Below the pieces are notes generated by a model. It searched no databases, had not been told where the DNA came from, and worked only from the letters and a program-made list of their open reading frames with translations. The position numbers and the translations under genes are program-made. Below are positions 1-20,370 of a stretch of 24,008 nt of DNA, piece after piece; position 1 is the stretch's first letter; the number at the start of each line of letters is the position of its first letter. Source of the DNA: a virus; the IMG/VR virus record IMGVR_UViG_3300047409_000036, positions 1 through 24,008 of that record; one strand, 5' to 3'.

Positions 1-1
1 C

Positions 2-34
2 CTGCTCGCGATCTTCGTCATCAAGCGCATCTGA
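2..34 (+). CDS. C-terminal end of an upstream gene (partial)
   Basis: The frame entering from the left edge reads LLAIFVIKRI and stops at a TGA (32-34). The next gene's ATG overlaps that stop as TGATG, the same coupling used between most genes of this window, so this is probably a real gene end. The hydrophobic run followed by a basic tail looks like the end of a membrane helix with its cytoplasmic anchor, as in a small membrane protein or holin. Only ten residues are visible, so no function is assigned. Confidence 0.5.
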   Translation: MLAIFVIKRI

Positions 35-756
35 TGAGCCGCGAGTCGGTCTGGTTCGTCACCCCGGCATGGGGTCGCTTCGACCTGACCGACGTCTGCC
101 TCGAGCAGCGCCGGGACGTGATTGCGAGACTCGCAACCGAGGGCATCGAGGGCAACTGCGTCGTCGTGGCGGATGACGAGAACCTCGACATCGCCCGGGA
201 TCACGGCTTCGACATCCTCGAGCGGAACAACGACTGGCTCGGCCGCCGGTTCAACGACGGCATCGAGTACGCCGCCCATCACGGCGCAACCCGGATCGTG
301 CCCATCGGCTCGGACTCGTGGATCGACCCCGGCTACTTCCTGCCGCTGCCGAACACGGCGCACACCCTCACGAGCCCGCTGTACTGCCACGTCACCGCGG
401 ACACCCTCCTGGAGTCGTCGGTCGATGACGACAAGGGCGCAGGGCCATACGTCTTCCACAAGTCGCAGCTCCGGTTCAGCCGGTTCCGTCCCGCAAAGGA
501 CGAGATCAGCCGGGGCGTGGACGGCTCGACGATCCGCGGCATCCGCTACCGCCTCCGGTGGGTTCGCAGGGAGCTTCACCCGTTCCAGTACGTCGGCTTC
601 CGCGTTCCGCCGTACCTCACGGGCTACGAGGCGCTGCGCGATGCGTGGGGCGTCCGAGAGCATCCGAACCCGTGGAGCATCCTCGCCGAGCACTATCCGG
701 TCGGACTCGTGGAGCGTGCGCGGGACATCCTGACGGCGCAGGAAGTGGCGGCGTGA
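34..756 (+). CDS. Putative glycosyltransferase, GT-A (family 2-like)
   Basis: A 240-residue cytosolic protein. The N-terminus has a beta strand and nucleotide-binding-type start (VWFVTPAWGRFDLTDVCLEQ). A second strand follows (NCVVVADDEN), then GRRFNDGIEYAAHHGA, which resembles the arginine/asparagine helix of GT2-type enzymes, then IVPIGSDSWIDPGYF, where the SDSWID acidic cluster sits where the metal-binding DxD motif is expected. These features suggest transfer of a nucleotide-activated sugar to an unknown acceptor. I recall similar proteins near terminase genes in actinobacterial phages, but no search was run. The ATG overlaps the preceding stop, and the gene overlaps the second transferase by 4 nt, so the two are probably co-translated. 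The acceptor could be a virion protein, DNA or host glycan. Confidence 0.62.
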   Translation: MSRESVWFVTPAWGRFDLTDVCLEQRRDVIARLATEGIEGNCVVVADDENLDIARDHGFDILERNNDWLGRRFNDGIEYAAHHGATRIVPIGSDSWIDPGYFLPLPNTAHTLTSPLYCHVTADTLLESSVDDDKGAGPYVFHKSQLRFSRFRPAKDEISRGVDGSTIRGIRYRLRWVRRELHPFQYVGFRVPPYLTGYEALRDAWGVREHPNPWSILAEHYPVGLVERARDILTAQEVAA

Positions 757-1937
757 ATGCCGTCATCGTCTCGTATGGCCAGGACACGAACGGGCAGAAC
801 GCACGATACGTCGAAGCCGCCCGGAAGCACGGCGACGAAGCCATGAAGGCCATCGCCATCGGCGCCACGGATCCTGCGGGAGTCGTCGGACGGTTCGCCG
901 AGGCCGGCATCAAGATGGGCACGCTGTCGCTTCGTAGCGCCGCTCGGGTCGTGCCGTACTTCGACTTCCCGGCAGACATCATCTGGGACGCCCATACCGA
1001 GCCGCTGATCCGCCAGCTCGTCAGCGAGGCCGATGTCGTCCACCTGAACAACTCGTACAAGGCCGTGAGCCAGTTCCGCGTGAAGAAGCCGATGCTGCTC
1101 CACCATCACGGCTCGCTGTTCCGAAGCGATCCTGCGTTCATGCTCGCACTCGCTCGGCGATACCGGATGGCGCAGGCCGTGAGCACGATCGACCTGACGC
1201 GACCGGCGCCCGATGTCCTGCATTGGCTGCCATCGGCATATGACATCGACGCCCTCCAGGCACTTCGCGAGGAGCACAAGCGCAAGCCCGATGGGCGGAT
1301 CCGCATCGTCCACTCGCCGACGAACCGGAGCCTGAAGCACACCGACCTCTTGATCACGACCGTGCTCGAGCTCGCCGAGACGCTGCCCATCGACCTCGTC
1401 CTCGTCGAGGGCAAGACGAACGCCGAGACGCTCATCGAGAAGGCGCAGGCCGACATCGTCTACGACCAACTGATGTACGGCTACGGCTGCAACTCCATCG
1501 AGGCGTGGGGCATGGGCATCCCCGTCATCAGCGGTGGCGATGCGTGGACGCTGAACCGCATGGACGAGATGTGGGGCGCCCTCCCGTTCGCCGAGGCCGA
1601 GGAGTCCACCCTGAAGGACGTGATCCGCGGACTCGTCACGTCAGCCGACATGCGCCAGGAGTACGCCGAGCGCGGCCTTGCCCATGTCCGCAAGCACCAC
1701 GACGAGCGGCCGGCGCTCGATAGGCTGCTCGAGCTCTACGACCTCGCCATCAAGACGTACTACCGAACCCGCAACGTCGAGCCCGTCCGCTTCCGCAACA
1801 ACGGCAAGAGCGTGACATGGGACAAGGTGGTCATCCCCTCAGGGACGGAGATCGAGGTGAGCGACCCCGAGGCCATCAGCCATCTGCGTGGACTCGTGAA
1901 GCGCAGCGCCTTCGACGTCGAGGAGGTGACGGCCTGA
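753..1937 (+). CDS. Putative glycosyltransferase, GT-B (family 4-like)
   Basis: The start is taken as GTG at 753, which overlaps the previous stop as GTGA and has AGGAAG about 7 nt upstream. It gives 394 residues beginning VNAVIVSYGQDTNGQNARY. The frame is open further upstream, but that extension lies wholly inside the previous gene. The first half has a Rossmann-like start and an HHHGS motif (117-121). The second half has HSPTNRSLKHTD (187-198), matching the donor-binding region of GT4 enzymes, and EAWGMGIPV (from E250), matching the conserved C-terminal glutamate motif. An extra 50-55 residues at the C-terminus look like a separate small beta domain. The likely role is sugar transfer, acting after or with the adjacent GT-A enzyme. 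The acceptor is unknown. Confidence 0.68.
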   Translation: MNAVIVSYGQDTNGQNARYVEAARKHGDEAMKAIAIGATDPAGVVGRFAEAGIKMGTLSLRSAARVVPYFDFPADIIWDAHTEPLIRQLVSEADVVHLNNSYKAVSQFRVKKPMLLHHHGSLFRSDPAFMLALARRYRMAQAVSTIDLTRPAPDVLHWLPSAYDIDALQALREEHKRKPDGRIRIVHSPTNRSLKHTDLLITTVLELAETLPIDLVLVEGKTNAETLIEKAQADIVYDQLMYGYGCNSIEAWGMGIPVISGGDAWTLNRMDEMWGALPFAEAEESTLKDVIRGLVTSADMRQEYAERGLAHVRKHHDERPALDRLLELYDLAIKTYYRTRNVEPVRFRNNGKSVTWDKVVIPSGTEIEVSDPEAISHLRGLVKRSAFDVEEVTA

Positions 1938-2347
1938 TGGAGGACCGTCGCTACCACACCGTCCGATGGCGCCGCAGTCGAGAGGCCGCACTGGCACGAG
2001 ACAAGTGGACGTGTCGCATCGTCGAGGGCTGCCCACGCAAGGCGACGGTAGCGGACCACATCATGCCGGTGTACCCAGGGATGCCAGACCACGAGTTCTT
2101 CGCGATGAGCAACCTCAGGGCAGGGTGCCACACCCACAACACCCGGAGAGGCATGGCAGAGCGGCTGGAGCGAGAGATGCGTGAGGGAGTGCAGCCATTG
2201 GCACCACTCGTCGCGTTCGCGAGTCGTTCCCGTTTTTTAGGGGCACGCACCCATATGACTGGCCCGCTCCCGAAATCTCTCCCCCTAAGCAGAACACCCA
2301 CTGTTTTTAGAGGAACCCGTGGCGGATATGGCGCTGACCGCGGCTAG
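1937..2347 (+). CDS. HNH endonuclease
   Basis: The ATG at 1937 overlaps the previous stop (TGATG), giving 136 residues. The HNH core is clear: C26 and C32, D40-H41 in VADHIMPV, N59 in MSNLR, and C64-H65-T-H67-N68. HNH proteins encoded beside the large terminase are known to assist cos-end cleavage in HK97-type phages, and the position here fits that. The core ends by about residue 85. The last 40 or so codons (from about 2225) include TTT, TTA, CTA and AGA, which are rare elsewhere in the window, so the annotated C-terminus may not be under protein-level selection. The frame runs 29 nt into the terminase gene, an unusually long overlap for this region. Confidence 0.8.
   Translation: MEDRRYHTVRWRRSREAALARDKWTCRIVEGCPRKATVADHIMPVYPGMPDHEFFAMSNLRAGCHTHNTRRGMAERLEREMREGVQPLAPLVAFASRSRFLGARTHMTGPLPKSLPLSRTPTVFRGTRGGYGADRG
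2225..2318 (+). other. T-rich, rare-codon stretch before the terminase; possible cos or regulatory site
   Basis: This stretch is visibly less GC-rich than its surroundings. It holds an imperfect direct repeat, GTTTTTTAGGGG (near 2232-2243) and GTTTTTAGAGG (near 2303-2313). A short stem ACTCG/CGAGT (2206-2210, 2220-2224) precedes the first T-run by 8 nt, too far for a convincing terminator. The second copy supplies the AGAGGA ribosome site of the terminase gene. It is formally inside the HNH frame. Its location between HNH and terminase is where cos sites occur in related phages, but no cos motif can be proven. Confidence 0.3.
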
Positions 2348-3752
2348 CCGCCGGAAGCCGCTGGAAGGCCGGGAACACCCCCGGCTCGCTCCACCGACCC
2401 CTGCACGCAGCGATGTGGCCGACTTCGTGAAGGTGGCCGAGGAGCTCGGCATCGGCCTGTTCCCGTGGCAGAAGACGGCAGCCCGCTACCTCACGGCCAA
2501 GGGCCAGGGCAACCGTTGGCTCTACCGACACGTCGCGATCGTGGTCGCGAGGCAGAACGGGAAGACGAAGCTGCTCGTTCCGCTCATCGTCCAGCGGCTG
2601 CGGATGGGCCAGCGGATCATGCACACCGCGCAGGACCGGAACCTCCCGCGGGAGATCTATTCCGAGGTCGCCGACATCATGGCCGCGTCTCCCGGTGAGC
2701 TGGCGGTGAAGAACGGGCGGATCGTCATGCCCCGGTTCGCCAACGGGCAGGAGGAGATCCGCATGAAGAACGGCGGCATCTACTCCATCGTGGCCCCGAC
2801 CAGAGGCGGTGCCCGTGGTCCATCCCGAGACTTGGTCATCGTGGACGAGCTTCGCGAGATGACGGACAACGACTTCATCGCTGCGGCCAACCCGACGCTT
2901 CAGGCATCGCAGTCGCCGCAGATCGTCTACCTCTCCAACGCGGGAGATGACACCTCGCTGGTCCTGAACTCCATCAAGGCATCGCAGGACGAGGACCCGA
3001 CGCTCGCGTACCTCGAGTGGAGCGCCGGCCCCGACCACGCCGCCGATGACATGGCGGGATGGTGCGAGGCGAACCCGTCCATCGGCCACCTTCCGGGGCT
3101 CGTGGAGAACCTCGGCCTCGACTACCAGACCCTCAAGGCCCGCGGAGCTCTGCCGATCTTCGAGACGGAGAACCTGTGCCGGTGGGTCACCACCGTCAGG
3201 GATCGACTGGTCGACGACAACGCATGGATGGCCTGCGCCGGTCCGGTCGGGACTCCGGTTCGTCCGTCACTCGCGGTATCCCTTGATCCTGACGGCAAGC
3301 GAGCCGCCATCGCGATCGCGTGGATGGTCGGCCGCAAGGTCGCCCTCCAGGTCGTCGAGAACGTCACGGGGGATCCGGTGAACACCGACGTCCTCGGGGA
3401 GACGCTGAAGCTCCTCGCGCTGAAGCACAACGCCAAGGTCGGGTACGAGCTCGAGGACTCGCAGCTCATGAAGTACGTCAAGAAGGACAAGGGCGTTGCG
3501 TTCGGTGGCGGCAAGGCCAAAGCCGCATCAGCCGAGTTCGCCCGCCTCGTCTCTGCGGGCGATCTGGTGTGGGCGAACTGCGATCCCGTCACCGATGACC
3601 TGACGTGGACGGCCCGCAAGCAGGACCATGACGGGACCTACGAGGCCGTCCGGGCGAAGGACGATCACCCGATCCCGGCTTCTCTGGCCGCGATCCGTGC
3701 TGTATATATGGCATCACTGCCACAGACTGAGGGAAGGCTGGTGGTCCGGTGA
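2319..3752 (+). CDS. terL: Terminase large subunit
   Basis: The packaging motor ATPase and nuclease, 477 residues, a usual length. The N-terminal adenine-binding region contains FPWQK. Walker A is ARQNGKT (77-83, K82) and Walker B is LVIVDE (172-177, E177 catalytic). A coupling-type motif follows at VYLSNAGD. The nuclease half begins at VSLDPDGKRAA (D323 and D325 as metal ligands), with a later acidic site in YELEDS. The start chosen is GTG 2319 with AGAGGA 4-5 nt upstream. ATG 2328 is an in-frame alternative that would place that site too far away. The gene ends in a 4-nt overlap (GTGA) with the portal gene. The HNH gene lies directly upstream and no small terminase subunit is recognised in the window. 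Confidence 0.95.
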   Translation: MADMALTAASRRKPLEGREHPRLAPPTPARSDVADFVKVAEELGIGLFPWQKTAARYLTAKGQGNRWLYRHVAIVVARQNGKTKLLVPLIVQRLRMGQRIMHTAQDRNLPREIYSEVADIMAASPGELAVKNGRIVMPRFANGQEEIRMKNGGIYSIVAPTRGGARGPSRDLVIVDELREMTDNDFIAAANPTLQASQSPQIVYLSNAGDDTSLVLNSIKASQDEDPTLAYLEWSAGPDHAADDMAGWCEANPSIGHLPGLVENLGLDYQTLKARGALPIFETENLCRWVTTVRDRLVDDNAWMACAGPVGTPVRPSLAVSLDPDGKRAAIAIAWMVGRKVALQVVENVTGDPVNTDVLGETLKLLALKHNAKVGYELEDSQLMKYVKKDKGVAFGGGKAKAASAEFARLVSAGDLVWANCDPVTDDLTWTARKQDHDGTYEAVRAKDDHPIPASLAAIRAVYMASLPQTEGRLVVR

Positions 3753-5653
3753 GCCTCTGGGATGACGTCGCGATGAAGCTGGCGCTGCGTCCCCGACTCC
3801 GAGGATCGGACCTCCCCGACCTCCCGCAGGCCCGGGCGATCGACTCCTTCACCGACTATCCCGGCCTGACCGAGCAGCTCCTCCGCATCCAGGGACTGTC
3901 TCCGCGCCCGTGGAAGGCCGCCGGCCTCCGCGATGCACTGGGAGTCCCCGCCATCGCGGGCGCGACGACGCTGATCGCCAAGACGATCGGCTCGATGACG
4001 ATGCGGGCGCTGAAGAACGAGGTCGAGATCCCGCCCGAGGACCGGCCGAGGCTCATCATCCGGCCCGACCCGTTCCGAACGGCCAACCTGTTCTACTTCC
4101 AGACGGGCTGGAACATCGCCACCCGTGGCGAGGCGTGGTGGTGGGTCGCCAAACGGGATGCCGACGGCAACGCGATCAGCATCATCAACGTCGACCCGGC
4201 GCAGGTCATGGTCGCGGAGAACACGCAGAACCTCCTCCGACCGACGATCACTTGGCGGAACGTCGAGATGCGGAACGAGGACATGGTCCACATCCCGTAC
4301 ATCCTCGACGCATCGAGCCTTCGCGGGATCGGACCCTTGCAGCTCTGCCAGGCCGCGATCTCCGTCACGGTGGAAGCCCAAGAGTGGGCGGCGAACTTCT
4401 ACGCCGATGGCGGCGTGACGATGGCGCCCGTCATCCACTCCGCGGAGATCCTCGGCGACGATCCCTCCGACCCCGATGCGGAGACGGAGGCCGAACGCTT
4501 CGCCGATGCGTGGAGCGCCAAGGGCAACAACCGGCCCCGGGTCGTGGATCCACGGGTCGAGTCCATCGACTTCCCGACGTTCAACTCGTCGGGAGCGCAG
4601 ATGCTCGACGCGAGGATGTACCAGAACGGCGAGGCCGCGAGGATGTTCAACATCCCGGGCACCCTCCTCGAGTACGCGATGTCGGGCAGCAGCCTGACGT
4701 ACCAGAACCTTAGTACCGTCTACGAGGACTTCCTCCGTCGGTGCCTGCGGCCGAACTACCTCGCCCCCATCGAAGCCGCCATGAGCGACCTCATCCCGCG
4801 AGCGCTGGTGGCGCGGTTCGACACCGACAACCTGACCCTCGCCGACACGAAGACGCGGTACGAGGCCTACCAGATCGGGATCACGACCGGCATCCTCACC
4901 GTCGAGCAGGCGCAGGCGTTCGAGGGCATCCAGCCCGGTGACACCGACAACGCCCCGGTGCCGTTCTCACCGCCGCAGGCCATCCCCGACGCCCTGCCCA
5001 TCCAGGGCCGCTCCGCCGAGATCCGCTGCCTGAAGTGCAACCGGCTCCTCGCGGAGGTCGCATCGGCCCCGTATCGGTTCACCTGCCCAAAGTGCAAGAC
5101 GGTGAACGAGATGGCCGGCGAGCAGATGCGTGTCGAACGCGATGCCGAGCCGCCGATGATCATCGCCCCGACCATCAACGTCCCGCCCGCCAACGTCACC
5201 GTCACGATGCCCGACATCGGTGACGCCATCGACCGCATCGGGACCATCGCGGCGGCGCTGAATGAGAATGCCATCTCCGCTCGGGCGCAGATCGACAGGA
5301 TGGCACCCAGTCCCGACCTGTCGGATCTGCCCGAGCGGATTGCTGCCGCGATGCCCCGACCGGAGCCGGCTCCTGCGTCCGAGGTTCACTTCCACGAGGG
5401 AGCCTTCCCGCGTGCCGAGGTGACGGTACCGACGCCGGAGTTCTCGTACCAGCCGCCGGACATCCACATCCCTGCGACCGAGGTCACCGTCCAGCCGACT
5501 CCCGTGACCATCGACATGGGTCCGGTGATGGCGATGGTCACCGAGCTCCAGGCACGCGTCGAGCAGATGAACGCCCCGAAGCAGCGCAAGGTCCAGCGCG
5601 ACAAGGACGGACGGATCATCGGGATCACCGAGTGGACGGAGAAGACGGCATGA
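3749..5653 (+). CDS. Portal protein with internal Com-like zinc ribbon
   Basis: A 634-residue protein that forms the dodecameric DNA entry ring at one capsid vertex. Residues of about 45-400 look like an HK97-family portal (GVPAIAGATTLIAKTIGSM, then the ANLFYFQTGWNIATRGEAWW region and the MFNIPGTLLEYAMSGSSLTY region). It is longer than typical portals of this family because of an added C-terminal section. First comes a four-cysteine ribbon, IRCLKCNRLL to FTCPKCKTVNEM, with C427, C430, C446 and C449, closely resembling the Mu Com zinc finger. Then comes a proline-rich beta-strand region (about 470-610) with repeating P-x-V-x-V motifs, and a basic end with DKDGRIIGITEW. The start is GTG 3749, overlapping the terminase stop. 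Confidence 0.93.
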   Translation: MSLWDDVAMKLALRPRLRGSDLPDLPQARAIDSFTDYPGLTEQLLRIQGLSPRPWKAAGLRDALGVPAIAGATTLIAKTIGSMTMRALKNEVEIPPEDRPRLIIRPDPFRTANLFYFQTGWNIATRGEAWWWVAKRDADGNAISIINVDPAQVMVAENTQNLLRPTITWRNVEMRNEDMVHIPYILDASSLRGIGPLQLCQAAISVTVEAQEWAANFYADGGVTMAPVIHSAEILGDDPSDPDAETEAERFADAWSAKGNNRPRVVDPRVESIDFPTFNSSGAQMLDARMYQNGEAARMFNIPGTLLEYAMSGSSLTYQNLSTVYEDFLRRCLRPNYLAPIEAAMSDLIPRALVARFDTDNLTLADTKTRYEAYQIGITTGILTVEQAQAFEGIQPGDTDNAPVPFSPPQAIPDALPIQGRSAEIRCLKCNRLLAEVASAPYRFTCPKCKTVNEMAGEQMRVERDAEPPMIIAPTINVPPANVTVTMPDIGDAIDRIGTIAAALNENAISARAQIDRMAPSPDLSDLPERIAAAMPRPEPAPASEVHFHEGAFPRAEVTVPTPEFSYQPPDIHIPATEVTVQPTPVTIDMGPVMAMVTELQARVEQMNAPKQRKVQRDKDGRIIGITEWTEKTA

Positions 5654-5961
5654 CGGTCATGATCGAGACGGTCCGCCACTGGTACTGCCCGAACTGCCTG
5701 CTCGAGGACACCACCACGGATCCTCGTCCGCACTCGCGGTTTCACACCTGTCCGAAGATGGGCAACCTGACGGCCCCGATGCTCCCTGCGGGGACGAAGG
5801 CCAAGGTGACCGCCCACGAGCGCGACGACTACGTCGGCAACGACATCGTCCGCCTGAATGATGACGGTCGCCCCGTCATGTCCATCACGACCGAGCGGGA
5901 GGATGGGCAGGACGTCGTCGTCTTCGCCCCGACTGCCACGGCATCAGCGAAAGAGATGTGA
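5650..5961 (+). CDS. Small zinc-ribbon-like protein, virion region
   Basis: The ATG at 5650 overlaps the portal stop as ATGA, giving 103 residues. An earlier in-frame ATG at 5632 lies inside the portal gene and is not preferred. The N-terminal part has WYCPNC (C13, C16) and RFHTCP (H32, C34), a plausible single zinc site. The rest is a short hydrophilic beta-rich domain ending in DGQDVVVFAPTA. I recall similar small proteins next to portal genes in actinobacterial phages without a known function. Being coupled to the portal gene suggests a head-assembly or portal-associated role. A DNA- or RNA-binding role is also possible. Existence is well supported; function is unknown. Confidence 0.75.
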   Translation: MTVMIETVRHWYCPNCLLEDTTTDPRPHSRFHTCPKMGNLTAPMLPAGTKAKVTAHERDDYVGNDIVRLNDDGRPVMSITTEREDGQDVVVFAPTATASAKEM

Positions 5962-5969
5962 GGTAAGTC

Positions 5970-6458
5970 ATGGCGTGGAGCAACAGCAAGATCTTCAGCG
6001 CGTGCCTGACGGACGCACTGAACAAGGCCAAGGGCTGGAACCTCGGTGCAGACACGATCGAGGCCGCCCTCTTCGACAACACGATCACCCCGTCGCAGAC
6101 GGTCGCATCGGCCTCGAGCGCCTACGGTGCTGGCGTGTGGGCCTCGGGTGGCGTGACTGACACGGGGACGTCCGCCCCTGCGGGCTGGCCCGCGCTCGGG
6201 CGTCCGCTCGGCTCGCTGGCGTCGGGCTTCAGCAGCAACGTCTACACCTTCGACGCCGCCGACACCGTGTCCGCGAACAGCGCGACGACCCTGACGAACG
6301 CCTACGGGACGCTCGTGTACGACCACACGACCACCTCGCCGGCGGGCGTGACGGACCAGGGCATCTGCTTCAACTACTTCGGCGGTGCCAACTCCGTCAC
6401 GCTGGGGACGTTCACGATCGTGTGGAATGCCTCTGGCATCTTCGCGCTGACGCTGTAG
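5970..6458 (+). CDS. Small phage structural-type protein, possible head or decoration component
   Basis: A 162-residue protein beginning MAWSNSKIFSACLTDAL, with GAGG 6 nt before the ATG. It is rich in small residues, Thr and aromatic beta strands, with motifs such as ADTIEAALFDNTITPS and DQGICFNYFGGANSVTLGTF. It ends in a strand pattern (TIVWNASGIFALTL) typical of compact virion beta-sandwich proteins. I recall like-sized proteins near head genes of other actinophages, annotated only as hypothetical. It has no signal peptide or membrane segment. A decoration or accessory capsid role is inferred from position between portal and capsid. It is the last gene before a terminator-like hairpin. Confidence 0.72.
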   Translation: MAWSNSKIFSACLTDALNKAKGWNLGADTIEAALFDNTITPSQTVASASSAYGAGVWASGGVTDTGTSAPAGWPALGRPLGSLASGFSSNVYTFDAADTVSANSATTLTNAYGTLVYDHTTTSPAGVTDQGICFNYFGGANSVTLGTFTIVWNASGIFALTL

Positions 6459-6519: not shown

Positions 6520-8007
6520 GTGACGACCTACTACGTCGACTTCGTCAACGGGTCCGACGCCAACAACGGCCTCGGTCCCGACGCTTCGGCTGTCTCGAAC
6601 AAGCCGTGGAAGACGATCACGAAGCTCCTCGGAGCGGCGGGGATGGCGTCGGGAGACACCGCCTACCTCTCGCCGGCTGGCCCGTTCCGCGAGACAGTGA
6701 CCGTCGCGATGACCTCGGCTGTCGCGGAGACGAAGGTTCTCGGTGATCCGGCCAATGCCCAAGGGTTCAAGACGTCGGGTGGTGTGTCCGTCACTCCGGG
6801 TGAGGTCCAGCTCACCGGCTACACGACGAATGACACGACGGCGCCATCCGCTGCGGTGCTCCTGAGCCTGAGCGCCCGCGACTTCCTGACGTTCCAATAC
6901 ATCACATTCATCGACGGGACGGGTCAGATCGTCCAGGGCGGTACCGACGCAACGAACATCACGTTCAAAGACTGCGCGTTCATGGGCGCAGCGGGCGCGT
7001 CGAACGGGTTGACTGGGACGGCGTCATTCGGGACTGCCCTCAACTGGACGATCCAACGATGCCGGATCGTCATGCTGGGAACAGGCGCCACGTTCTCCTT
7101 CACGGCGACCACCGCTGGTGCCGGCGCGGACTTCGACATGAACGTCCAGATCAGCGATTGCCTCGTCATCGGAGTGGGCAATGCAGTCACGGTCGGCGCC
7201 AGTGGGTCCAGCTCAAGCAAGGGCAATGGCGTCCACGTCAAGAACTCGACCCTCTATACGGGAAGTACCTGCTTCAGTTCCAACTCGGCCAACCTCAGCA
7301 ACACCGTTGCGAACCTCGTCTACAACAACCTGATCGTCACAGGTAGTGCCCTCACCGCAAGCGCGACCGGCGGTCTGATCACCGAGGATTACAACCAGAT
7401 CATTGCGACCACCGCACGGACCAACGTCTCGACAGGAACGCATTCAATCGCCAATGCGGCCCATGCGGCCTTGTTCCACTTCGGCCAGGAGCTGTTCTGG
7501 GGCGGCAACCTCCGACCATTCGGGATGCCCACTGCTGGTTCACCGCTCCTCGGCTTCGGTGGAAACAGTCCGACCGCGACGGACATCCTGAACAACGCAC
7601 GGCCGTCAGGTGGCGCGTCTGCTTCGACGGCCATCGGAGCCTATGAGCGGGCCAACACCTTCGGCCGCGAGATGTCCACCGTTCGGACGGGCTCGAATGC
7701 CATCAGCATCACGGGACCAGGACTGTCGGACTTCGACATCCCGGTCGATGCCATCTCGACGACCTGTACGGTCTACGTCCAGTGGGACGCGACCTACGCC
7801 GGGACGAAGCCCAAGATGCAGGTGATCAAGGGCACGGAGGCTGGTGTCGCTGATGCCACTGCCACGGCAACCGGCTCCTCGGGCTCATGGGAGCAACTGT
7901 CACTGAACTTCACGCCCACGGCGAAGGGGATCGTGACGATCCGCTTCCTGTCCTCCGACACCAACGGCGGCGGGAAGATGTTCGTCGATGACTTCGATGT
8001 GACCTAA
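6520..8007 (+). CDS. Right-handed beta-helix surface protein
   Basis: A 495-residue protein starting at GTG 6520; the AGG before it is poorly placed, so initiation may be weak. The N-terminus YYVDFVNGSDANNGLG followed by PWKTITKLL is the classic entry of pectate-lyase-like parallel beta-helix proteins. Repeating short strands with Asn/Thr/Gly turns follow to about residue 370 (ITFKDCAFMG, WTIQRCRIVM, NVQISDCLVI, VHVKNSTLY). A C-terminal beta-sandwich of about 115 residues (FTPTAKGIVTIRFLSS, FVDDFDVT) resembles a carbohydrate-binding or trimerisation module. It probably decorates the virion as a head or tail fibre, possibly cleaving or binding polysaccharide. No catalytic residues can be assigned. 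Its location between portal and capsid genes is unusual for a fibre. Confidence 0.75.
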   Translation: MTTYYVDFVNGSDANNGLGPDASAVSNKPWKTITKLLGAAGMASGDTAYLSPAGPFRETVTVAMTSAVAETKVLGDPANAQGFKTSGGVSVTPGEVQLTGYTTNDTTAPSAAVLLSLSARDFLTFQYITFIDGTGQIVQGGTDATNITFKDCAFMGAAGASNGLTGTASFGTALNWTIQRCRIVMLGTGATFSFTATTAGAGADFDMNVQISDCLVIGVGNAVTVGASGSSSSKGNGVHVKNSTLYTGSTCFSSNSANLSNTVANLVYNNLIVTGSALTASATGGLITEDYNQIIATTARTNVSTGTHSIANAAHAALFHFGQELFWGGNLRPFGMPTAGSPLLGFGGNSPTATDILNNARPSGGASASTAIGAYERANTFGREMSTVRTGSNAISITGPGLSDFDIPVDAISTTCTVYVQWDATYAGTKPKMQVIKGTEAGVADATATATGSSGSWEQLSLNFTPTAKGIVTIRFLSSDTNGGGKMFVDDFDVT

Positions 8008-10451
8008 TGGCAGTCGCGCTGGTCGGCACGATCGGCACTGCCGTCCAGAGCACATCCGGCGGGAACGCCAGCCCCGGTTGGGGCGCGAGCGAGAACCGGA
8101 CCTACGGCAATCTCCTCGTCCTGTTCAGCTCCGTCACCGGCACTGCCACACTGCCGAGCACGCCCGCCGGCTGGACCATCGCGAAACAGGTCGCAGGCAC
8201 CTCCTGCTCCGCAACCGTCTACACCCGGATCGCCACCGGGACGGACTCTGCACCGGTCATCACGGGCGTTACCTCTGGGCTGATCGCCGCCCAGCTCGCG
8301 GAGTACAGCGGCGTCGGGACGCTCCCGGTTCCGAACCAGTCCGGCTCCGCGACGGCGACCTCGAGCCCTGTCACCGCCACGGCCGGTGGAGCGGACGGGT
8401 CGAGCAGTTCCCTGCTCCTCGCTGCGGGAGGCGACTTCCGCTCCGTCGCACGAGCCCCCAACGACACATGGACCAGCAACCACGTCACCACCGTGACGGC
8501 GGCCGGCAACAACAACGGCGTCTCGTCGGTCAACCACTACTCGTTCGGCTACGGGACCACCAACAGCAACAGCGGTGCGGACACCGCGATCATGACCCTG
8601 TCCGTCACGACGAGCATCACCGGGCTCGCAGTGGCGATGGCGACCTTCCTCCAGGGCGACACTGGGCCGAGCGAGGTATCGACGGGAACCGGCGCCGCCT
8701 ATCAGGCGGTCGCGAATGTCCAGCCGAATGCCGACGTCGGAACTGGCACCGGTGCCGCTTATGACGTCCCGATCAGATGCGCGCCTGCTGGTCTCGCGAG
8801 CGGCACCGGCACTGCCTCTGACGCCATCGTCCCGAACCCCAACCCGAACTTCTTCAACATCTTCCGTCGGGGTGAGCCCTATCAGTTCCTCCGAAGCACG
8901 GCCAAGCAATGGGGCTTCGACTACTACCGCCGCGCGGAACCCCTTCTTGATCTCGATACCCAACTGCCATCGAGTTCCACGTCCACCAATGCATCTGCCG
9001 GACTCGCCTCAGGCACGGGCACTGCGTACTCGGCAACTGCCTCGATCGCGGGATCATCGGGCGCATCGTCAGGGACTGGGTCGGCTGGCAGCGCCATCAT
9101 CAACCTGCAGCCGAACGCGGGCTCAGGGTCAGGTACAGGCTCCGCGGGCGGTCCTGGTGGGACCGTCTCGGCGACAATCGGTGCCGCTCTGGGAACCGGT
9201 TCGGCCGGGACGGCTGCGTCGAACGTCCAGCCCAACGCCGATGTCGCCAATGGGACAGGGACGGCCTACGACGCAACAGGAGCCGTTGCCAAGGCCGTCA
9301 GTCCAACGGCTGCTACCGGCACAGGGACGGCATCGGATGCCACGACCAATATCGCGGGGTCGATCAACGTCGCCAGCGGCACCGGCACCTCGAACGGCGC
9401 CGCCGGTTCCGTCGCGACGAACTCGGGCTCAGGCTCCGCGACAGGATCGGCCGGCGGTCCCGCTCCCTCGGAGTCCGTCAGCGCAGGAGGAGGCACCGGA
9501 ACAGGGTCTGCCTTCGACGCCACGGGGACTCAGTCGGTCAACGCCAACCCCACTGCAGCAACCGGCACCGGAACGGCATACACCCCGACTACGATCATCG
9601 AGGACGACACCGTCGAGATCGCCCAGGGGACCGGCGCAGCAGGAACCCCGAGCATCAGCATCGCCGTCAACGGCGGCGAGGGAACCGGCACCGGAACCGC
9701 ATACGACGCCACCGGAGCGGTCTCGCAGTCGGCTTCTGCTGGCGCTGCAACCGGAACCGGGGCAGCGTCGGATGCCATCCCGTCCATCGCCACGGCTCCG
9801 ACTGTCTCGTCAGGGACCGGCTCTGCGGGTGGCATTGCAGGATCCGTCGCCACCTCCAGCGGCACGGGCTCCGCGACTGGCACCGCCGGCGGGCCTGCTC
9901 CGTCCGAGTCGGTCAACGTCGATGTCGCATCCGGCACTGGTTCGGGCTTCGACGCCATCATCACGACGAGCTCGGATGCCCATGCGGCAGCAGGCACGGC
10001 AACAGGAACAGGCACGGCCTCCGGTCCGCGGATCGACATCCTCGGGTCGGTCACCTCGGCAGACGGCACTGGTTCTGCGGGAACGGCCGGTGCCGACGTC
10101 CAGTCCGGTGCCGGCGGTGCCACGGGTTCGGGTTCTGCCTCTGGTTCCTCGCCGTCGCTCGAGGTGCTCATCGGGGGAGCCTTCGGCACCGGCTTGGCGT
10201 ACAACGCCACCGCCCAGGCATCGGAGCCCGGTCATGCCATCGCGCAGCTCGCCTCGGGGACGGGACACGCATACAACGCCACCGTCCATGCCGTCTCCAA
10301 GGAAGAGCGCCACGGTGGCAAGAACATCAAGATCACGCGGCACAAGTTCGTCGATGCCGGGATCGCCATCGGCCGTGGGACCGCATATGACCCCGACCCG
10401 ACGTGGAACGACGACGAGTTCGTCCTCGCCCTGCTCCTCGATGCTGCGTAA
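8007..10451 (+). CDS. Gly/Thr/Ala/Ser repeat surface protein
   Basis: An 814-residue protein coupled to the beta-helix gene by TAATG. Residues 1-220 form a beta-sandwich-like domain (LPSTPAGWTIAKQVAG, LIAAQLAEYSGVG). The remainder consists of about 25 degenerate copies of an S/T-GTGTAYDA-type motif spaced roughly 20-24 residues apart. The array is interrupted near residues 270-320 by a non-repeat insert that itself holds two related RRGEP/RRAEP segments (NIFRRGEPYQFLR and YYRRAEPLLDL). It ends in KNIKITRHKF and an acidic tail. I recall similar GTGTAYDA arrays in actinophage tail-region proteins. The low-complexity, Ser/Thr-rich array fits an extended virion fibre and is a plausible glycosylation target. 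Function is inferred. Confidence 0.72.
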   Translation: MAVALVGTIGTAVQSTSGGNASPGWGASENRTYGNLLVLFSSVTGTATLPSTPAGWTIAKQVAGTSCSATVYTRIATGTDSAPVITGVTSGLIAAQLAEYSGVGTLPVPNQSGSATATSSPVTATAGGADGSSSSLLLAAGGDFRSVARAPNDTWTSNHVTTVTAAGNNNGVSSVNHYSFGYGTTNSNSGADTAIMTLSVTTSITGLAVAMATFLQGDTGPSEVSTGTGAAYQAVANVQPNADVGTGTGAAYDVPIRCAPAGLASGTGTASDAIVPNPNPNFFNIFRRGEPYQFLRSTAKQWGFDYYRRAEPLLDLDTQLPSSSTSTNASAGLASGTGTAYSATASIAGSSGASSGTGSAGSAIINLQPNAGSGSGTGSAGGPGGTVSATIGAALGTGSAGTAASNVQPNADVANGTGTAYDATGAVAKAVSPTAATGTGTASDATTNIAGSINVASGTGTSNGAAGSVATNSGSGSATGSAGGPAPSESVSAGGGTGTGSAFDATGTQSVNANPTAATGTGTAYTPTTIIEDDTVEIAQGTGAAGTPSISIAVNGGEGTGTGTAYDATGAVSQSASAGAATGTGAASDAIPSIATAPTVSSGTGSAGGIAGSVATSSGTGSATGTAGGPAPSESVNVDVASGTGSGFDAIITTSSDAHAAAGTATGTGTASGPRIDILGSVTSADGTGSAGTAGADVQSGAGGATGSGSASGSSPSLEVLIGGAFGTGLAYNATAQASEPGHAIAQLASGTGHAYNATVHAVSKEERHGGKNIKITRHKFVDAGIAIGRGTAYDPDPTWNDDEFVLALLLDAA
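8676..10395 (+). repeat. Degenerate tandem repeats inside the surface-protein gene
   Basis: At the DNA level the array is built on GGCACCGGNAC-like cores recurring about every 60-72 nt. A longer period is also visible. The segment starting at 9261 (TAYDATGAV ... AATGTGTASDA ... SGSATGSAGGPAPSESV) recurs at 9696 with the same spacing and no gaps for about 90 residues, an offset of 435 nt (145 residues). This points to duplication of a multi-unit block followed by divergence. Confidence 0.75.
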
Positions 10452-10595: not shown

Positions 10596-10769
10596 ATGCG
10601 GCTCTACGGATACCGACGAACAGACGGGCGCACCCTCTCCGCGGTTCGCCGCCCCACTCGTCCGGTTGACCCTTCCACGCTGAAGAAGCCCGAGCTGGTG
10701 AAGCTCGCCGAGTCCAAGGGCATCGACTCCTCCGGCACGAAGGACGAGATCCTCGAGCGCCTGTCATGA
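10596..10769 (+). CDS. SAP/HeH-like mini-protein
   Basis: A 57-residue protein beginning MRLYGYRRTDGRTLSAVRR. GGAGG lies 9 nt before the ATG, and the stop overlaps the capsid gene start as ATGA. Residues of about 28-57 (LKKPELVKLAESKGI, then GTKDEILERL) match the two-helix SAP/HeH/LEM pattern with its conserved glycine-turn-lysine. This motif is known in nucleic-acid-binding proteins and recurs in small phage proteins near head genes. The N-terminal half is Arg-rich, which supports DNA or RNA contact. It may contact packaged DNA, or bind its own leader; both are guesses. Its coding reality is supported by the ribosome site, the coupling and the recognisable motif. Confidence 0.7.
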   Translation: MRLYGYRRTDGRTLSAVRRPTRPVDPSTLKKPELVKLAESKGIDSSGTKDEILERLS

Positions 10770-12799
10770 CGGACGAGACGAGGTTCGTGTCCTACACGGA
10801 GAACATGAGCAACTCCGTGACGGTCAATCTTGACCGTCACGGAGAAGCCCGAGCCACCAAGACGGAGGACGGGGTTGCCTATCCTGCGTCGGACTACTGC
10901 TACGTTCCCGATGCCGCTGCTCCCTCGACGTGGAAGCTCCGCGTCACGGACCACGGCCAGGACGACACCGCGCTCGTCTCGGCTGCTGCCGCTGCCCTCT
11001 CAACGGGTGGCTTTCGCGGTAACCCCGTCCAGCTCCCCGCTGCTGACCGGTCGGCCGTGGTTGCCTGCGTCCGGCGGGCGTGGAAGTCGGCCTACCCCGA
11101 CCGCATGGACATGCCGGTAGGGATCCGGTCGGAGGACGACGTGGAGGAAGCCCGCTCGCTGATGTTCGAGGCGTCGGACATCGAGGTCCGTGACGCCATG
11201 AAGCGCGAGGTCGATGTCCGCCTGCTGCCGTGGGGCAAGCAGATCGACACGAAGATGGGACCGGAGGAGTTCCGCAAGGGCGCCTTCGACGGCACCGATC
11301 CCTCGACCGTCTACCTGTTCGGAGCCGAGCACGAGATGCGGTTCGGCCTCGGCCAGGACGGCTCTCCCAAGCCGGTCCGGGTTCCCGTGGGGCGAGCCAT
11401 CGCCCTCGGGGAGGATGAGATCGGCCCCAAGGCCACCTTCCGCGTTGCCCGAACCAGTGGCGGTGATGAAGCCCTCGCGCTGATGGCCGACAAGATCATC
11501 AGCGGCGTGTCCGTCGAGTTCAGCGAAGTCCCCGGCGGGACCCTCATCGAGAACCGGAACGGCCGCCGGGTCCGTGTCCACACCCGCGCCCGCCTCATGG
11601 GCGCAACACCAACCCACCGTCCCGCCTATGGCGACCAGGCGACGGTGCTTGCAGTGCGGTCGCTCGAGGAGGTTGCCCCGATGGGCGAAGGTACCGAGAT
11701 CGCCCCGGTTGCGGGGCCAGTGGAGGACACGGCAGTCCGTGTCCTCGCGGCCATCGAGGCCGTCGAGACCCGCGCCAAGGCGCAGGACGCCGTCAACCAG
11801 AAGTTCCTCGAGCGGATGGACCGCTTCGAGGAGAACGCCCGCGCCTCGTTCGAGGTGCCGAACCCGTCACCGGAGCCCGACAAGCCCCGCATCCACAAGG
11901 GCGAGTGGATCCAGATCGTCACCCGCATCCTGACGGGCGAGCGCATCCCGGACCAGCAGCTCCGATCGCTCGAGGACGTCATCACGACCGACAACGCGGG
12001 CGTCGTCCCGCCGGCGTTCCTGACGGAGCTGATCGGCGTCATCGACAACTCGCGTCCGTTCATGCAGACGACCCGCCGACTGCCGACCCCCGCCTCGGGG
12101 ATGAAGCTGACGGTCCCGGTCATCACGCAGCGTCCGGAAGTCGGCATCCAGGCCCACGAGAAGGACGACATCGCCTCTCGGGCCACGAAGATCACGGCCG
12201 AGGACTTCAACGCCGTGACCATCGCGGGTGGCGGCGACCTGAGCCTCCAGATCATCAAGCGGTCCAGCCCGGACTTCCTGAGCCTGTGGGTGGAGCTCCT
12301 GGCCGAGGCGTACGCCATCGAGGCCGAGGACGTCAGCGTCCTCGCGCTGCTCGACAGCATCGGCGGCGTCGGTGCGGCGAGCGCCCTGAACCCCAACAAC
12401 CTCGCGCTCGGGGATGCGTTCGTCACGAGCTTCGACGCCATCCGGCGTCCCCCGGACACGATCTGGCTCTCGACCAAGGCGGTCGGCGAGTTCATCGACG
12501 CCAAGGCGACCACCACCAACCAGCCCCTGTACCCCGGCCTCGCTGCCTCCGCAACGGCGGCCGGTGGGATCACGGGCGTCATCAGCGGCCTGCGCCCGGT
12601 CCATGTCCCGGCGCTCGACGCGCATGGCGCCTACGCGATCGTCGGACCCTCGTCCGGGTTCGCGTGGGCCGAGGACGGGACGTACACCCTCCAGGTGGAC
12701 GTCCCGTCCAAGGCCGGTCGCGATGTCGCGCTGGTCGGCATCCTTTGGCCGGCCCCGTGGTATCCGGCAGCCTTCACCGCGTATAACGTCGCCTCGTAA
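10766..12799 (+). CDS. Fused prohead protease and major capsid protein
   Basis: A 677-residue, three-part protein. Residues 1-135 form an N-terminal domain (YCYVPDAAAPSTWKLRVTD, GGFRGNPVQLPAADRSAV) of a type I recall attached to phage maturation proteins. Residues of about 146-300 match the HK97 prohead protease (peptidase S78), with H189 in GAEHEM and S249 in ISGVSVEF as catalytic candidates and RARLMGATPTHRPAY near the end. Residues of about 315-360 are a predicted coiled coil (AIEAVETRAKAQDAVN, FLERMDRFEENA), like the scaffolding delta domain. The rest is an HK97-fold capsid protein (VPPAFLTELIGVIDNSRPFM, DTIWLSTKAVGEFIDAKA). One chain supplying scaffold, protease and shell implies self-cleavage during assembly. 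Confidence 0.92.
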   Translation: MTDETRFVSYTENMSNSVTVNLDRHGEARATKTEDGVAYPASDYCYVPDAAAPSTWKLRVTDHGQDDTALVSAAAAALSTGGFRGNPVQLPAADRSAVVACVRRAWKSAYPDRMDMPVGIRSEDDVEEARSLMFEASDIEVRDAMKREVDVRLLPWGKQIDTKMGPEEFRKGAFDGTDPSTVYLFGAEHEMRFGLGQDGSPKPVRVPVGRAIALGEDEIGPKATFRVARTSGGDEALALMADKIISGVSVEFSEVPGGTLIENRNGRRVRVHTRARLMGATPTHRPAYGDQATVLAVRSLEEVAPMGEGTEIAPVAGPVEDTAVRVLAAIEAVETRAKAQDAVNQKFLERMDRFEENARASFEVPNPSPEPDKPRIHKGEWIQIVTRILTGERIPDQQLRSLEDVITTDNAGVVPPAFLTELIGVIDNSRPFMQTTRRLPTPASGMKLTVPVITQRPEVGIQAHEKDDIASRATKITAEDFNAVTIAGGGDLSLQIIKRSSPDFLSLWVELLAEAYAIEAEDVSVLALLDSIGGVGAASALNPNNLALGDAFVTSFDAIRRPPDTIWLSTKAVGEFIDAKATTTNQPLYPGLAASATAAGGITGVISGLRPVHVPALDAHGAYAIVGPSSGFAWAEDGTYTLQVDVPSKAGRDVALVGILWPAPWYPAAFTAYNVAS

Positions 12800-14523: not shown

Positions 14524-15600
14524 ATGCCAGTCCAGGGCTTCGTCCGCGCACGAAAGCACCAGTTCGGACGCCAGTCCGTCATGGGGACCAAGGTCGCGGC
14601 AGCCCGCGCCTATCCGATGTCAGGCGTCCCCGCCGTCAACCTGAACAAGACCGACCCGGACGTCGACACCGGGTCCATCGTCAAGACGGTTGCCCCGTAT
14701 CTCGGCCCGTCGGACATCACGGCTCCCCTGACGATGCCGGCCCTCGACTACGACTCCATCCCGCTCCTGATGTGCGCCCTGTTCGGCGGCCAGGAGTCTC
14801 CGGTCACGACCGCCAGCACGGGTCGGACGTGGACCCACAAGCCGTCTCCCGTCGATCCCCTCGATCTCCCCGACGTGTTCACCTACGAGTTCGGCGACGA
14901 CGTCGTGACGGACTGGTTCCAGCTCGGCGACGGCATCCTCGAGTCCCTGACGATCACCGGCCCCGACGGGCTAGGCGTCTGCTCCGTCTCCTCGACGTGG
15001 CGGTTCGCCTCGGGCTCCTCGACGGGTTCGACCGACTTCCCGGTCACGGGTTCCGTCCCGACGCCCGACCTGTTCGTGGACACGTCCCCGACCTACGTCT
15101 ACATGAAGGACATGGGGCTCTTCATCTCCGACCTCGTCGGGACGGTGGACAGCAACCAGATCTCGAACGCGCTCCACAACTTCACCCTGACGATCACGCG
15201 CACCGTGGACCAGAAGCGGTTCGCCAACGCCTCGCAGTCCTTCGATATCAACGAGTACGGCGTGGCGGGGTACGAGGTCGTCCTGGCCCTGACTCTCGCG
15301 AAGACCGACGACACGGTCGGGACCGGCTCCGAGGCCGATGCGTGGTACTCCGAGGATGCGGTGGCGCGGTTCATCCGCCTGAAGTTCACCGCAATCCCGT
15401 TCGTCGGCGGCTCGACGCCGTTCTCGTGGCAGATCTCGATGCCGGCTTGGTACTACACCCGCGACGACGGTGAGTCGGGCGGCAACACCACCGTCACCCT
15501 GACGGCCAACGCCTACTACCTCCCGTCCTACGCCGGGTTCTTCGAGTCGGTCGTCGTCAACCAGCTCCGTGAGTCGCAGCTCGGCGAGAACGTCTCCTGA
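14524..15600 (+). CDS. Major tail tube protein
   Basis: A 358-residue protein with a strong ribosome site (AGAGGAG, 6 nt before the ATG), as expected for the most abundant tail component. It begins MPVQGFVRARKHQFGRQSV. The beta-rich body (LTMPALDYDSIPLLMCALFGG, TYEFGDDVVTDWFQLGDGIL, LTITRTVDQKRFANASQSF) and the near-repeat of strands fit the tail tube fold. At 358 residues it is longer than the simplest tube proteins, with no clear extra Ig-like domain. The 65-nt gap before it (14459-14523) shows no convincing promoter. It is coupled to the chaperone gene by TGATG. Confidence 0.85.
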   Translation: MPVQGFVRARKHQFGRQSVMGTKVAAARAYPMSGVPAVNLNKTDPDVDTGSIVKTVAPYLGPSDITAPLTMPALDYDSIPLLMCALFGGQESPVTTASTGRTWTHKPSPVDPLDLPDVFTYEFGDDVVTDWFQLGDGILESLTITGPDGLGVCSVSSTWRFASGSSTGSTDFPVTGSVPTPDLFVDTSPTYVYMKDMGLFISDLVGTVDSNQISNALHNFTLTITRTVDQKRFANASQSFDINEYGVAGYEVVLALTLAKTDDTVGTGSEADAWYSEDAVARFIRLKFTAIPFVGGSTPFSWQISMPAWYYTRDDGESGGNTTVTLTANAYYLPSYAGFFESVVVNQLRESQLGENVS

Positions 15601-18307: not shown

Positions 18308-20370
18308 TGACGCTGCTCGCCTATCTCGCGGGCGATGACCACGCCCACAACATCCGTCTGAACGACATCGGCCTCACGACGCACGCCGATGGTTCTGTGG
18401 GCTTCGGCGGGATCGTGTTCGACGACCCGGACGGGACGCTCCTCGTCCGAGGCTGGATGGAGGTGATGGTCGTCGAGGACGAGTGCATCGACGCGCCGAT
18501 CCTGTTCCGGGGGTGGGTCGGCGACCGGCAGTACGTCCGCCAGGGTGGCCAGGGGCAGCCGTATCGTTCGGCGGTCGGTCGGTACATCGACACGAACCTC
18601 GTTGACCCGAACGACGCGCTGGTCATCCGCCTGTTCGTGAACCCCGATGCCAAGCGACCACCGGAGACGGACATCCGCCGCATCAACTGGTTGCTCGGAG
18701 CGGCGGATCCCGGGGGGCTCGACGGACTCGTCATCGACCTCGGCCTCGTCGATCGCTCGTCGCCTCGTCCGTTCCAGGATGCCGACTGGCGCGGCTCGTA
18801 TGCGCGTGACGTGCTGGAGGACCTCGCGGCGCCGCTCGGGCGCATCTTCTTCGTCTACATCAACCAGCCCGACGGGACGTTCGGGCTGTTCTACGACTTC
18901 CCGACGAGCACCGTGAACACGTCGAGCCTGAGCATCAGCAACGATGCCGATGACACGTCGGATACCTGCTTCTACCCGTTCATGGACGGGAACCTCCATC
19001 GCGACCCGTCGAACATGATCAGCCTCGAGCGGTTCATCTACCGGAATGGCGTGGTGCTCGAGGGCGACACCGGTACGCAGACGGACTACTTCTCGGCTGC
19101 CGCGACGGGCGGCGCGGACCTCGGCAACCGCGGTGACAACGTCAGCAACGATCGCGTCGGGCTGGAGGACACCGCCCGGACGATGGCCGACGGGAACCTC
19201 AACAAGAACGGCATCGAGCGCGACACGCTCACGGTGTCGATCATCCTGCCCGCGGCTCAGGTCGGGTTCATCGACGTGGGCCAGCGGGTCGCGATCAAGC
19301 TGACGCACCTGGAGATGGAGGGATACGCCCCGGACTTCGTGTATGTCCGCGTCACGGCTCGGCAGATCCAGCAGTACGTCACGAACCAGAACTACGTCGT
19401 GACCCTCGAGCTGTCCAACGACGGGCTCCGGTCCTCGGGTGGTGGGGGCGGGACTCCGGTCGGTGACTTCCCGCATCCGCCGTCGAGCCCCGGCAGCATC
19501 ATCCAGGGCGACTGGACGGCCGGCAACCCGATGATGCCGAACCCCATCCAGGACGGCGACACCCTCGTCATGGGCATCGAGACCCGCGGCACCGTCGTGT
19601 CGGGATTGGTTCCGGCGAGCTACAGCGTCAGCCCCGAGGGCATCCAGACGGTAACGCCGGACCAGATGGCGTTCATCATCAAGCCGTCTGCCTCCGGGGA
19701 TACCCAGTCGTTCGTCGCGGGGATCGGGATCGACTCGGCCGGCGGCTGGTGGGAGCTCTCGCCGGGGATGACGGTCACCGACTCGTCATCGACGTCGGGA
19801 TCCGCGACTGGTCTCCCGTCGGAGACGTTCAGCGCGGGCGCCGTGACGATGGCGCAGGGCGATATCGCGCTCATCATGTTCCTCGCGACTGACGGTGGAG
19901 TGTTCGACTCGGGCATCATCCTCGACTCGTGGGCATGGACCGCGGTCGCTCCGTCCGTCGAGGATGGACATGGGGCAGGTGGGTCCGGTCACCCGGGCTG
20001 GTACTTCGCCCACTACACCGCGACGGCAGCAGGGTCGTTCACGGCGCAGGCCACGTTCCTCGAGCCGATCAGCTCGGGTGCGTTCGACTGGGGCGCTCAG
20101 GTGATCGTCCTCCACTCCGACGCGGTGGCGAACCCGCCCATCCCCGGCTCGGAGGTTCCGTGGGAGACCGTCGTCATGACCACCGTGAACGGAGTCAGCG
20201 CCGGGACCACCGCCAACCCGTACGCCGACCGATCCCTCCAGGTGAAGGTGGACGGCAACATCATCTCGCCCGCCTCGTTCACCGAGGATGACGGGCTCTG
20301 CGGCGACTTCCACCTCTCATGGGAGATCGACGTCGGCGAGACCGTCCAAGTGAAGTACCAGGGCCGCTGA
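18307..20370 (+). CDS. Tail-tip (distal tail or hub) minor tail protein
   Basis: A 687-residue protein coupled to the tape measure gene by TGATG, the position of the distal-tail/tail-associated hub. Residues of about 1-370 are beta-rich (IGLTTHADGSVGFGGIVFD, LFRGWVGDRQYVRQGG, GRIFFVYINQPDGTFGLFYD, DTLTVSIILPAAQVGFIDVG), compatible with a hub ring. A glycine-proline linker (about 376-398) leads to a second beta-sandwich section with lectin- or Ig-like character (GGWWELSPGMTVTDSSS, HPGWYFAHYTATAAGSFTAQ). A short final domain follows, starting WETVVMTTVNGV. No separate Dit and Tal genes are seen, so this chain may cover both. Function is inferred from position and domain style. Confidence 0.75.
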   Translation: MTLLAYLAGDDHAHNIRLNDIGLTTHADGSVGFGGIVFDDPDGTLLVRGWMEVMVVEDECIDAPILFRGWVGDRQYVRQGGQGQPYRSAVGRYIDTNLVDPNDALVIRLFVNPDAKRPPETDIRRINWLLGAADPGGLDGLVIDLGLVDRSSPRPFQDADWRGSYARDVLEDLAAPLGRIFFVYINQPDGTFGLFYDFPTSTVNTSSLSISNDADDTSDTCFYPFMDGNLHRDPSNMISLERFIYRNGVVLEGDTGTQTDYFSAAATGGADLGNRGDNVSNDRVGLEDTARTMADGNLNKNGIERDTLTVSIILPAAQVGFIDVGQRVAIKLTHLEMEGYAPDFVYVRVTARQIQQYVTNQNYVVTLELSNDGLRSSGGGGGTPVGDFPHPPSSPGSIIQGDWTAGNPMMPNPIQDGDTLVMGIETRGTVVSGLVPASYSVSPEGIQTVTPDQMAFIIKPSASGDTQSFVAGIGIDSAGGWWELSPGMTVTDSSSTSGSATGLPSETFSAGAVTMAQGDIALIMFLATDGGVFDSGIILDSWAWTAVAPSVEDGHGAGGSGHPGWYFAHYTATAAGSFTAQATFLEPISSGAFDWGAQVIVLHSDAVANPPIPGSEVPWETVVMTTVNGVSAGTTANPYADRSLQVKVDGNIISPASFTEDDGLCGDFHLSWEIDVGETVQVKYQGR

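Follow-up and report, generated by a model that had tools for sequence, protein, structure and literature searches.

The window, by which we mean the whole 24,008-b stretch of viral DNA analysed here, is a contig that begins just upstream of a glycosyltransferase gene; because it starts there, the genome is partial, with the early genes absent from the record. Positions 1-33 encode the tail of a hydrophobic protein, which by eye fits the small membrane (holin-like) genes found there in relatives. The first complete gene on the plus strand encodes a GT-A-fold glycosyltransferase (GT-A, 34-756) of 240 aa with an ATG start, and the second a GT-B-fold enzyme (GT-B, 753-1937) of 394 aa with a GTG start. 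The GT-A stop and the GT-B start share a 4-nt overlap, GTGA (753-756), as do their counterparts in four other phage contigs (L004, L005, L062 and L063). We place the GT-B start at the GTG at 753 because homologues begin at the same residue, and the longer in-frame reading from 558 is a mechanical ORF only.

The GT-B stop in turn overlaps by 1 nt (TGATG, 1935-1939) the start of an HNH endonuclease gene (1937-2347, plus strand; phrog_144, E 2e-12). The terminase large subunit (2319-3752, plus strand), recognised by Pfam and PHROG profile matches, follows, and the order GT-B, HNH, terminase recurs in L059. Next comes a portal protein with a C-terminal zinc-ribbon-like part (3749-5653, plus strand). 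The preliminary description had reported a 4-nt coupled glycosyltransferase pair leading into packaging and structural genes, and the order of overlap, HNH, terminase, portal and capsid genes confirms it. Overlaps of 4 nt are common in phages and mean little alone. We regard this one as more than chance, because the overlapping pair recurs in unrelated virion modules. A consensus scan, which is weak evidence, revealed no promoter- or terminator-like sites in positions 1-4000.

A small protein that follows the portal (5632-5961) displays a CxxC..H..C pattern and has a homologue at the equivalent place in L010. Farther along the plus strand lie a small Ser/Thr-rich protein (5970-6458, 25% S+T), a Ser/Thr/Gly repeat protein (8007-10451, 26% S+T), a fusion of head protease and major capsid protein supported by profile matches (10766-12799), and a probable major tail protein assigned by position (14524-15600, 20% S+T). 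An S/T-rich virion protein at 20370-21857 resembles a head-decoration PHROG family. The capsid gene is a triple fusion, which joins an N-terminal domain, an S78-type head protease and an HK97-type capsid protein; the N-terminal domain (residues 10-127) shares about 40% identity with hypothetical proteins encoded by Salmonella and Klebsiella phages. The nearest isolate terminases, at about 30% identity, belong to actinobacteriophages, which hints at an actinobacterial host for the window phage.

Sequence libraries (Pfam, PHROGs, phmmer on PDB) were nearly blank on both enzymes, so structure was needed. GT-A had zero matches in Pfam up to E 1, in PHROGs and in phmmer on PDB, and for GT-B the three together gave a single weak match. 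The GT2 profile PF00535 was unmatched by the window GT-A and was reached by one distant member of its family only, at E 0.2; we therefore file GT-A as GT2-like in fold only, not as a GT2 member. Predicted from an alignment of 38 relatives, the GT-A model has a pLDDT of 97.1 and a pTM of 0.93, and its best 50 structural matches by Z are all nucleotide-sugar transferases or glycan synthases, with a maximum Z of 16.8. They include WrtF, TarS, TarP and heparosan synthase, with Z 16-17 over 170-185 residues. In general, GT-A resembles the GT2-type enzymes TarP, TarS, WrtF, RmlT and SpsA in fold (Z 14-17 over 170-200 residues) and in motif order. It differs from them in its low identity (9-15%), in a reduced DxD motif, and in the absence of an added C-terminal or membrane domain.

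The motifs of GT-A follow a GT2-like order: VVVADDEN (47-50), N66..GRxFNDG (70-76), GSDSW (92-96) and D163. An Asp pair is retained ahead of the N..GRxFNDG element. Residues N74, G76, G92, D94 and P153 are invariant in all 38 aligned GT-As, and D163, the likely base, is kept in 37. On the donor side, the DxD motif has shrunk to GSD(S/D)W, where D94 is the sole invariant Asp. Searches of open-access literature turned up no description of this phage-specific family.

The core of GT-B (residues 1-342, 753-1778) is GT4-like, with its closest Pfam profile, PF13524, below cut-off at E 0.008. Modelled from an alignment of 10 relatives, it reaches a pLDDT of about 90-98 over most of its length. The best structural matches, BshA (Z 23.2) and PimA (Z 22.6), extend over about 290 residues. 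Together with MshA and PglA, these GT4 enzymes share with GT-B the whole-core fold (Z 21-23) and the positions of R192, K195 and E250. In contrast, identity to them is only 10-17%, the first Glu of the E-x7-E motif is unconserved, and GT-B has an extra C-terminal module of about 50 residues. Residues G14, G120, P189 and G245 are invariant in 10 of 10 GT-Bs; K195 is found in 9 and E250 in 8, R192 is mostly kept, and the first Glu of E-x7-E is replaced by Tyr, Leu or other residues. The C-terminal extension (residues 343-394, 1779-1937) is poorly modelled and forms a separable module. It is found in 11 GT-Bs, and in L060 it stands alone as a gene adjoining GT-B (9271-9540). Nothing in Pfam or PHROGs matched it significantly, the best hit being phrog_33758, of unknown function, at E 0.014. 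This module perhaps takes part in acceptor recognition.

Two glycosyltransferases of different folds had been proposed from the first inspection, and structure prediction, with fold matches to GT2-type and GT4 enzymes, bore this out. At the level of predicted models, GT-A is confirmed as a GT-A-fold, GT2-like glycosyltransferase, and GT-B as a GT-B-fold, GT4-like glycosyltransferase with two Rossmann domains, the C-terminal one being the donor domain. Given the degenerate DxD in GT-A and the unconserved first Glu in GT-B, activity cannot be assumed; from the models, we infer that both enzymes are catalytically active.

An alignment-based pattern search located GT-A in 45 viral contigs. Among 84,980 bacterial and archaeal species genomes, a single cellular locus was found; its contig is 12 kb long and comes from a metagenome-assembled bin. 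Relatives of GT-B occur in 33 contigs; a single-protein scan with GT-B gave zero relatives, and the alignment-based search was required. Counts are based on profile matches because single-linkage clusters merge some distinct glycosyltransferases (cluster 1 contains GT2-type and GT-B proteins). A tblastn search of 50,697 isolate-phage records with both enzymes and two divergent members gave no match. Within the sensitivity of these sequence searches, GT-A and GT-B are families mainly of uncultivated phages.

We mapped the gene neighbourhoods of 73 non-redundant loci that contain GT-A, GT-B or both, many of them related, so that the counts are not independent: a recognised virion gene is present in 62, 55 have one on the same strand at a distance of no more than 3.5 kb, and the major capsid gene is the nearest upstream virion gene within 1.5 kb in 17. 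Capsid, portal, protease and connector calls were checked by PHROGs on representatives, and some other calls were made by position. The insertion point varies by lineage. The genes lie after the capsid gene in L005, L006, L007, L018, L060-L063 and others, between the connector and a gp10-like gene in L030, L037 and L042-L044, between terminase and portal in L028 and L041, between portal and scaffold or capsid in L011 and L013, and between lysis genes and terminase in the window, L010 and L053-L059. The adjacent overlapping pair is found in the window and in the four contigs named above, with the gene order reversed in L010. In some unrelated phages, it sits directly between the major capsid and head-tail connector genes. 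Two variations of GT-A were seen: in one group of phages (L006, L021, L022, L025, L031 and L034) it is repeated in tandem immediately behind the capsid gene, and in L018 (6262-7830) it forms a fused double-domain protein.

The window GT-A is 53-59% identical to the GT-As of L004, L005, L062, L063 and L010. The first four of these phages have terminases 20-24% identical to that of the window, only short partial matches in the portal, and no match to the window capsid protein. The window's structural relative is L053, with 56% identity in terminase, 66% in portal and 63% in capsid, and it carries GT-B (62%) without GT-A. Since GT-A is shared with phages of unrelated heads and missing from L053, the genes for the enzymes travel independently of those for the head. 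Judged from these comparisons, the pair behaves as an exchanged late-operon cassette. GT-B co-occurs in 7 of the 11 loci of the window's GT-A subfamily versus 2 of 27 others (Fisher p 0.0007, relatedness ignored). In L053, the place of GT-A (9300-9990) is taken by an unannotated frame that by eye resembles a double-psi beta-barrel (RlpA-like) cell-wall protein.

In relatives, sugar- and glycan-synthesis enzymes cluster with these glycosyltransferases. Large glycan cassettes are located between the head-tail connector and tail genes in L004 (7611-12929), L013 and L015; they contain GT2, rhamnosyltransferase-like, GT-A, GT-B, cytidylyltransferase, CDP-glycerol glycerophosphotransferase and epimerase genes. 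DegT aminotransferase, WbqC-like proteins and methyltransferases also belong to the larger cassettes. In L003, an asparagine-synthase-like gene (10719-11552) separates GT-A from a CDP-glycerol transferase-like gene. One might imagine that the phage-only GT-A is the hub of exchangeable head-operon glycan cassettes in numerous uncultivated phages, of which the larger ones would build a complex or polymeric, wall-polymer-like glycan directly on the capsid and the window would represent the minimal two-enzyme version; we consider this quite unlikely.

Our preferred interpretation is that the pair serves virion glycosylation, which we hold to be probable. The preliminary description had put this forward as a candidate function, with the repeat protein at 8007-10451 among the possible acceptors. 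The function is supported by the folds and motifs, by the late operon, by the capsid- or packaging-adjacent cassette in unrelated phages, and by a slot shared with mycobacteriophage Che8; the repeat protein as acceptor gained no support from a presence/absence check. Relatives of its 214-residue N-terminal domain (L166-L171) occur in phages where neither enzyme was found, four of the records having been searched whole. Conversely, no GT-B phage carries the domain. On co-occurrence, therefore, we rejected this protein as the acceptor, although in the window phage itself it may still be modified. Its N-terminal domain (8007-8660) reaches 74% identity with proteins encoded on phage contigs of 111 kb and 131 kb (L168 and L170), a similarity that likely reflects exchange between very different phages.

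Other acceptors can be considered. The small Ser/Thr-rich protein at 5970-6458 is a candidate; its homologue was found only in L010, which also has the pair, and with one relative only, we rejected it as a general partner of the glycosyltransferases. By analogy with the capsid-adjacent cassettes elsewhere, the capsid fusion (10766-12799) is another candidate acceptor, and the tail protein (14524-15600) and the S/T-rich protein (20370-21857) may likewise be modified. We found no one virion protein whose occurrence went together with that of the glycosyltransferases.

In the mechanism we propose, both glycosyltransferases would be soluble, cytoplasmic proteins made late, alongside packaging and head proteins. 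They would draw sugars from the host nucleotide-sugar pools and place them on one or more virion proteins, such as the capsid, tail tube or decoration protein. The GT4-like enzyme and GT-A may act in sequence on one glycan, and the proposed order, a first sugar followed by its extension, is plausible. GT-B frequently occurs without this GT-A, and the two steps are thus not obligately linked. The benefit might be changed adsorption or protection of the particle. The protein modified, the sugars donated, the sequence of the two steps and the advantage gained are all inferred. The masking of particles from antibodies, which was suggested earlier, is speculative for an environmental phage.

Modification of the host surface is an alternative that we judge unlikely. 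Here the pair would attach sugars to a glycolipid or wall polymer of the host, whether infected or lysogenic, and so block the adsorption of competing phages or released progeny. The fold neighbours include the wall-polymer transferases TarP, TarS and RmlT and the lipid-linked mannosyltransferase PimA, and among the products of related cassettes are proteins of the kind usual for surface polysaccharides (rhamnosyltransferase-like, CDP-glycerol-type, epimerase and WbqC-like). Moreover, at least one relative, L057, by eye seems to encode an integrase-like protein. However, the acceptor cannot be read from fold similarity. Hydropathy analysis revealed no membrane segments in 108 proteins, and the GtrA-type flippase (PF04138) was found in 0 of 24 related contigs, which may be incomplete, while controls matched. 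The cassettes also belong to the head operon, where capsid and connector genes often flank them, rather than to a lysogenic module.

We give still less credence to the idea that the genes are non-functional or generic cargo, that is, inactive folds or small-metabolite enzymes that persist in late operons because insertion is tolerated there. Consistent with it, the DxD and E-x7-E motifs are degenerate, and the structural neighbours of GT-B include the small-molecule enzymes BshA and MshA. The glycosyltransferases are also missing from close relatives: L053 is without GT-A, and in L091 and L097 neither gene is present at the lysis-HNH-terminase junction, so the function is dispensable. Nevertheless, other active-site motifs are strongly conserved over 30-60% identity, and the pair is repeatedly retained in unrelated phages, which together argue for selection. 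Glycosylation of phage DNA against restriction, as by T4 alpha-glucosyltransferase, is very improbable: phage glycosyltransferases can glycosylate DNA according to PMC12619734, and GT-B does have the T4 enzyme as a structural neighbour (Z about 20), but it ranks under many small-molecule and glycan GT4 enzymes, a search of 24 related contigs (17-57 kb; fragments possible; controls matched) found no member of the thymidylate-synthase/hydroxymethylase family (PF00303), and the glycosyltransferase genes of the mapped loci lie beside head genes, not replication genes.

To our knowledge, reports of virion glycosylation are limited to a few cultured mycobacteriophages. If this is indeed the role of the pair, uncultivated phages would be passing the trait around on an exchangeable cassette in the late operon, the basis of which is a GT-A family unrecognised by public Pfam and PHROG models. 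The loci would also supply specific enzyme pairs with which to ask which protein of the virion receives sugar and to what end. We thus see a genuine glycosyltransferase pair that most likely serves virion glycosylation, a trait of a known kind, with enzyme families that are new and a cassette that recurs and is exchanged in late operons.

Among known systems, the Gtr seroconversion clusters resemble the window system in that the glycosyltransferases are phage-encoded. In contrast, no GtrA flippase was found in the 24 related contigs and no membrane segments by hydropathy, and the window system lies in the late head operon rather than in the attachment-site region. Closer in kind are the mycobacteriophages such as Che8, for which papers describe glycosylated capsid and tail-tube proteins (PMC12363180, PMC12619734) and report a role of the Che8 glycosyltransferases in capsid glycosylation (PMC12363180). 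Corndog and Myrna are reported to have related systems (Freeman et al., 2023, as cited in PMC12363180 and PMC12619734).

Che8 has three overlapping glycosyltransferase genes (gp108-110), followed by gp111 and an HNH gene at the right genome end, and its terminase genes open the left end. Both systems thus have glycosyltransferases in 4-nt overlaps, then HNH, then terminase, in Che8 across the genome end, and the slot of lysis genes, glycosyltransferases, HNH and terminase is common to the two. A Che8-like layout, with terminase and GT-B at opposite ends, was observed in L052/L088 (26,952 b) and L056/L104 (26,311 b). The enzymes differ: by Pfam, gp108 is a GT2-methyltransferase fusion, gp109 is GT2-like and gp110 is GT25-like, families other than those of the window. 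With hhalign, the Che8 glycosyltransferases showed no detectable homology to the GT-A and GT-B family alignments (probability below 1%), in a comparison of low sensitivity, with single sequences on the Che8 side. The virion glycosyltransferases reported so far likewise belong to families other than the window's. The window system occupies a Che8-like slot with different enzymes, and its likeness to that of Che8 is one of arrangement.
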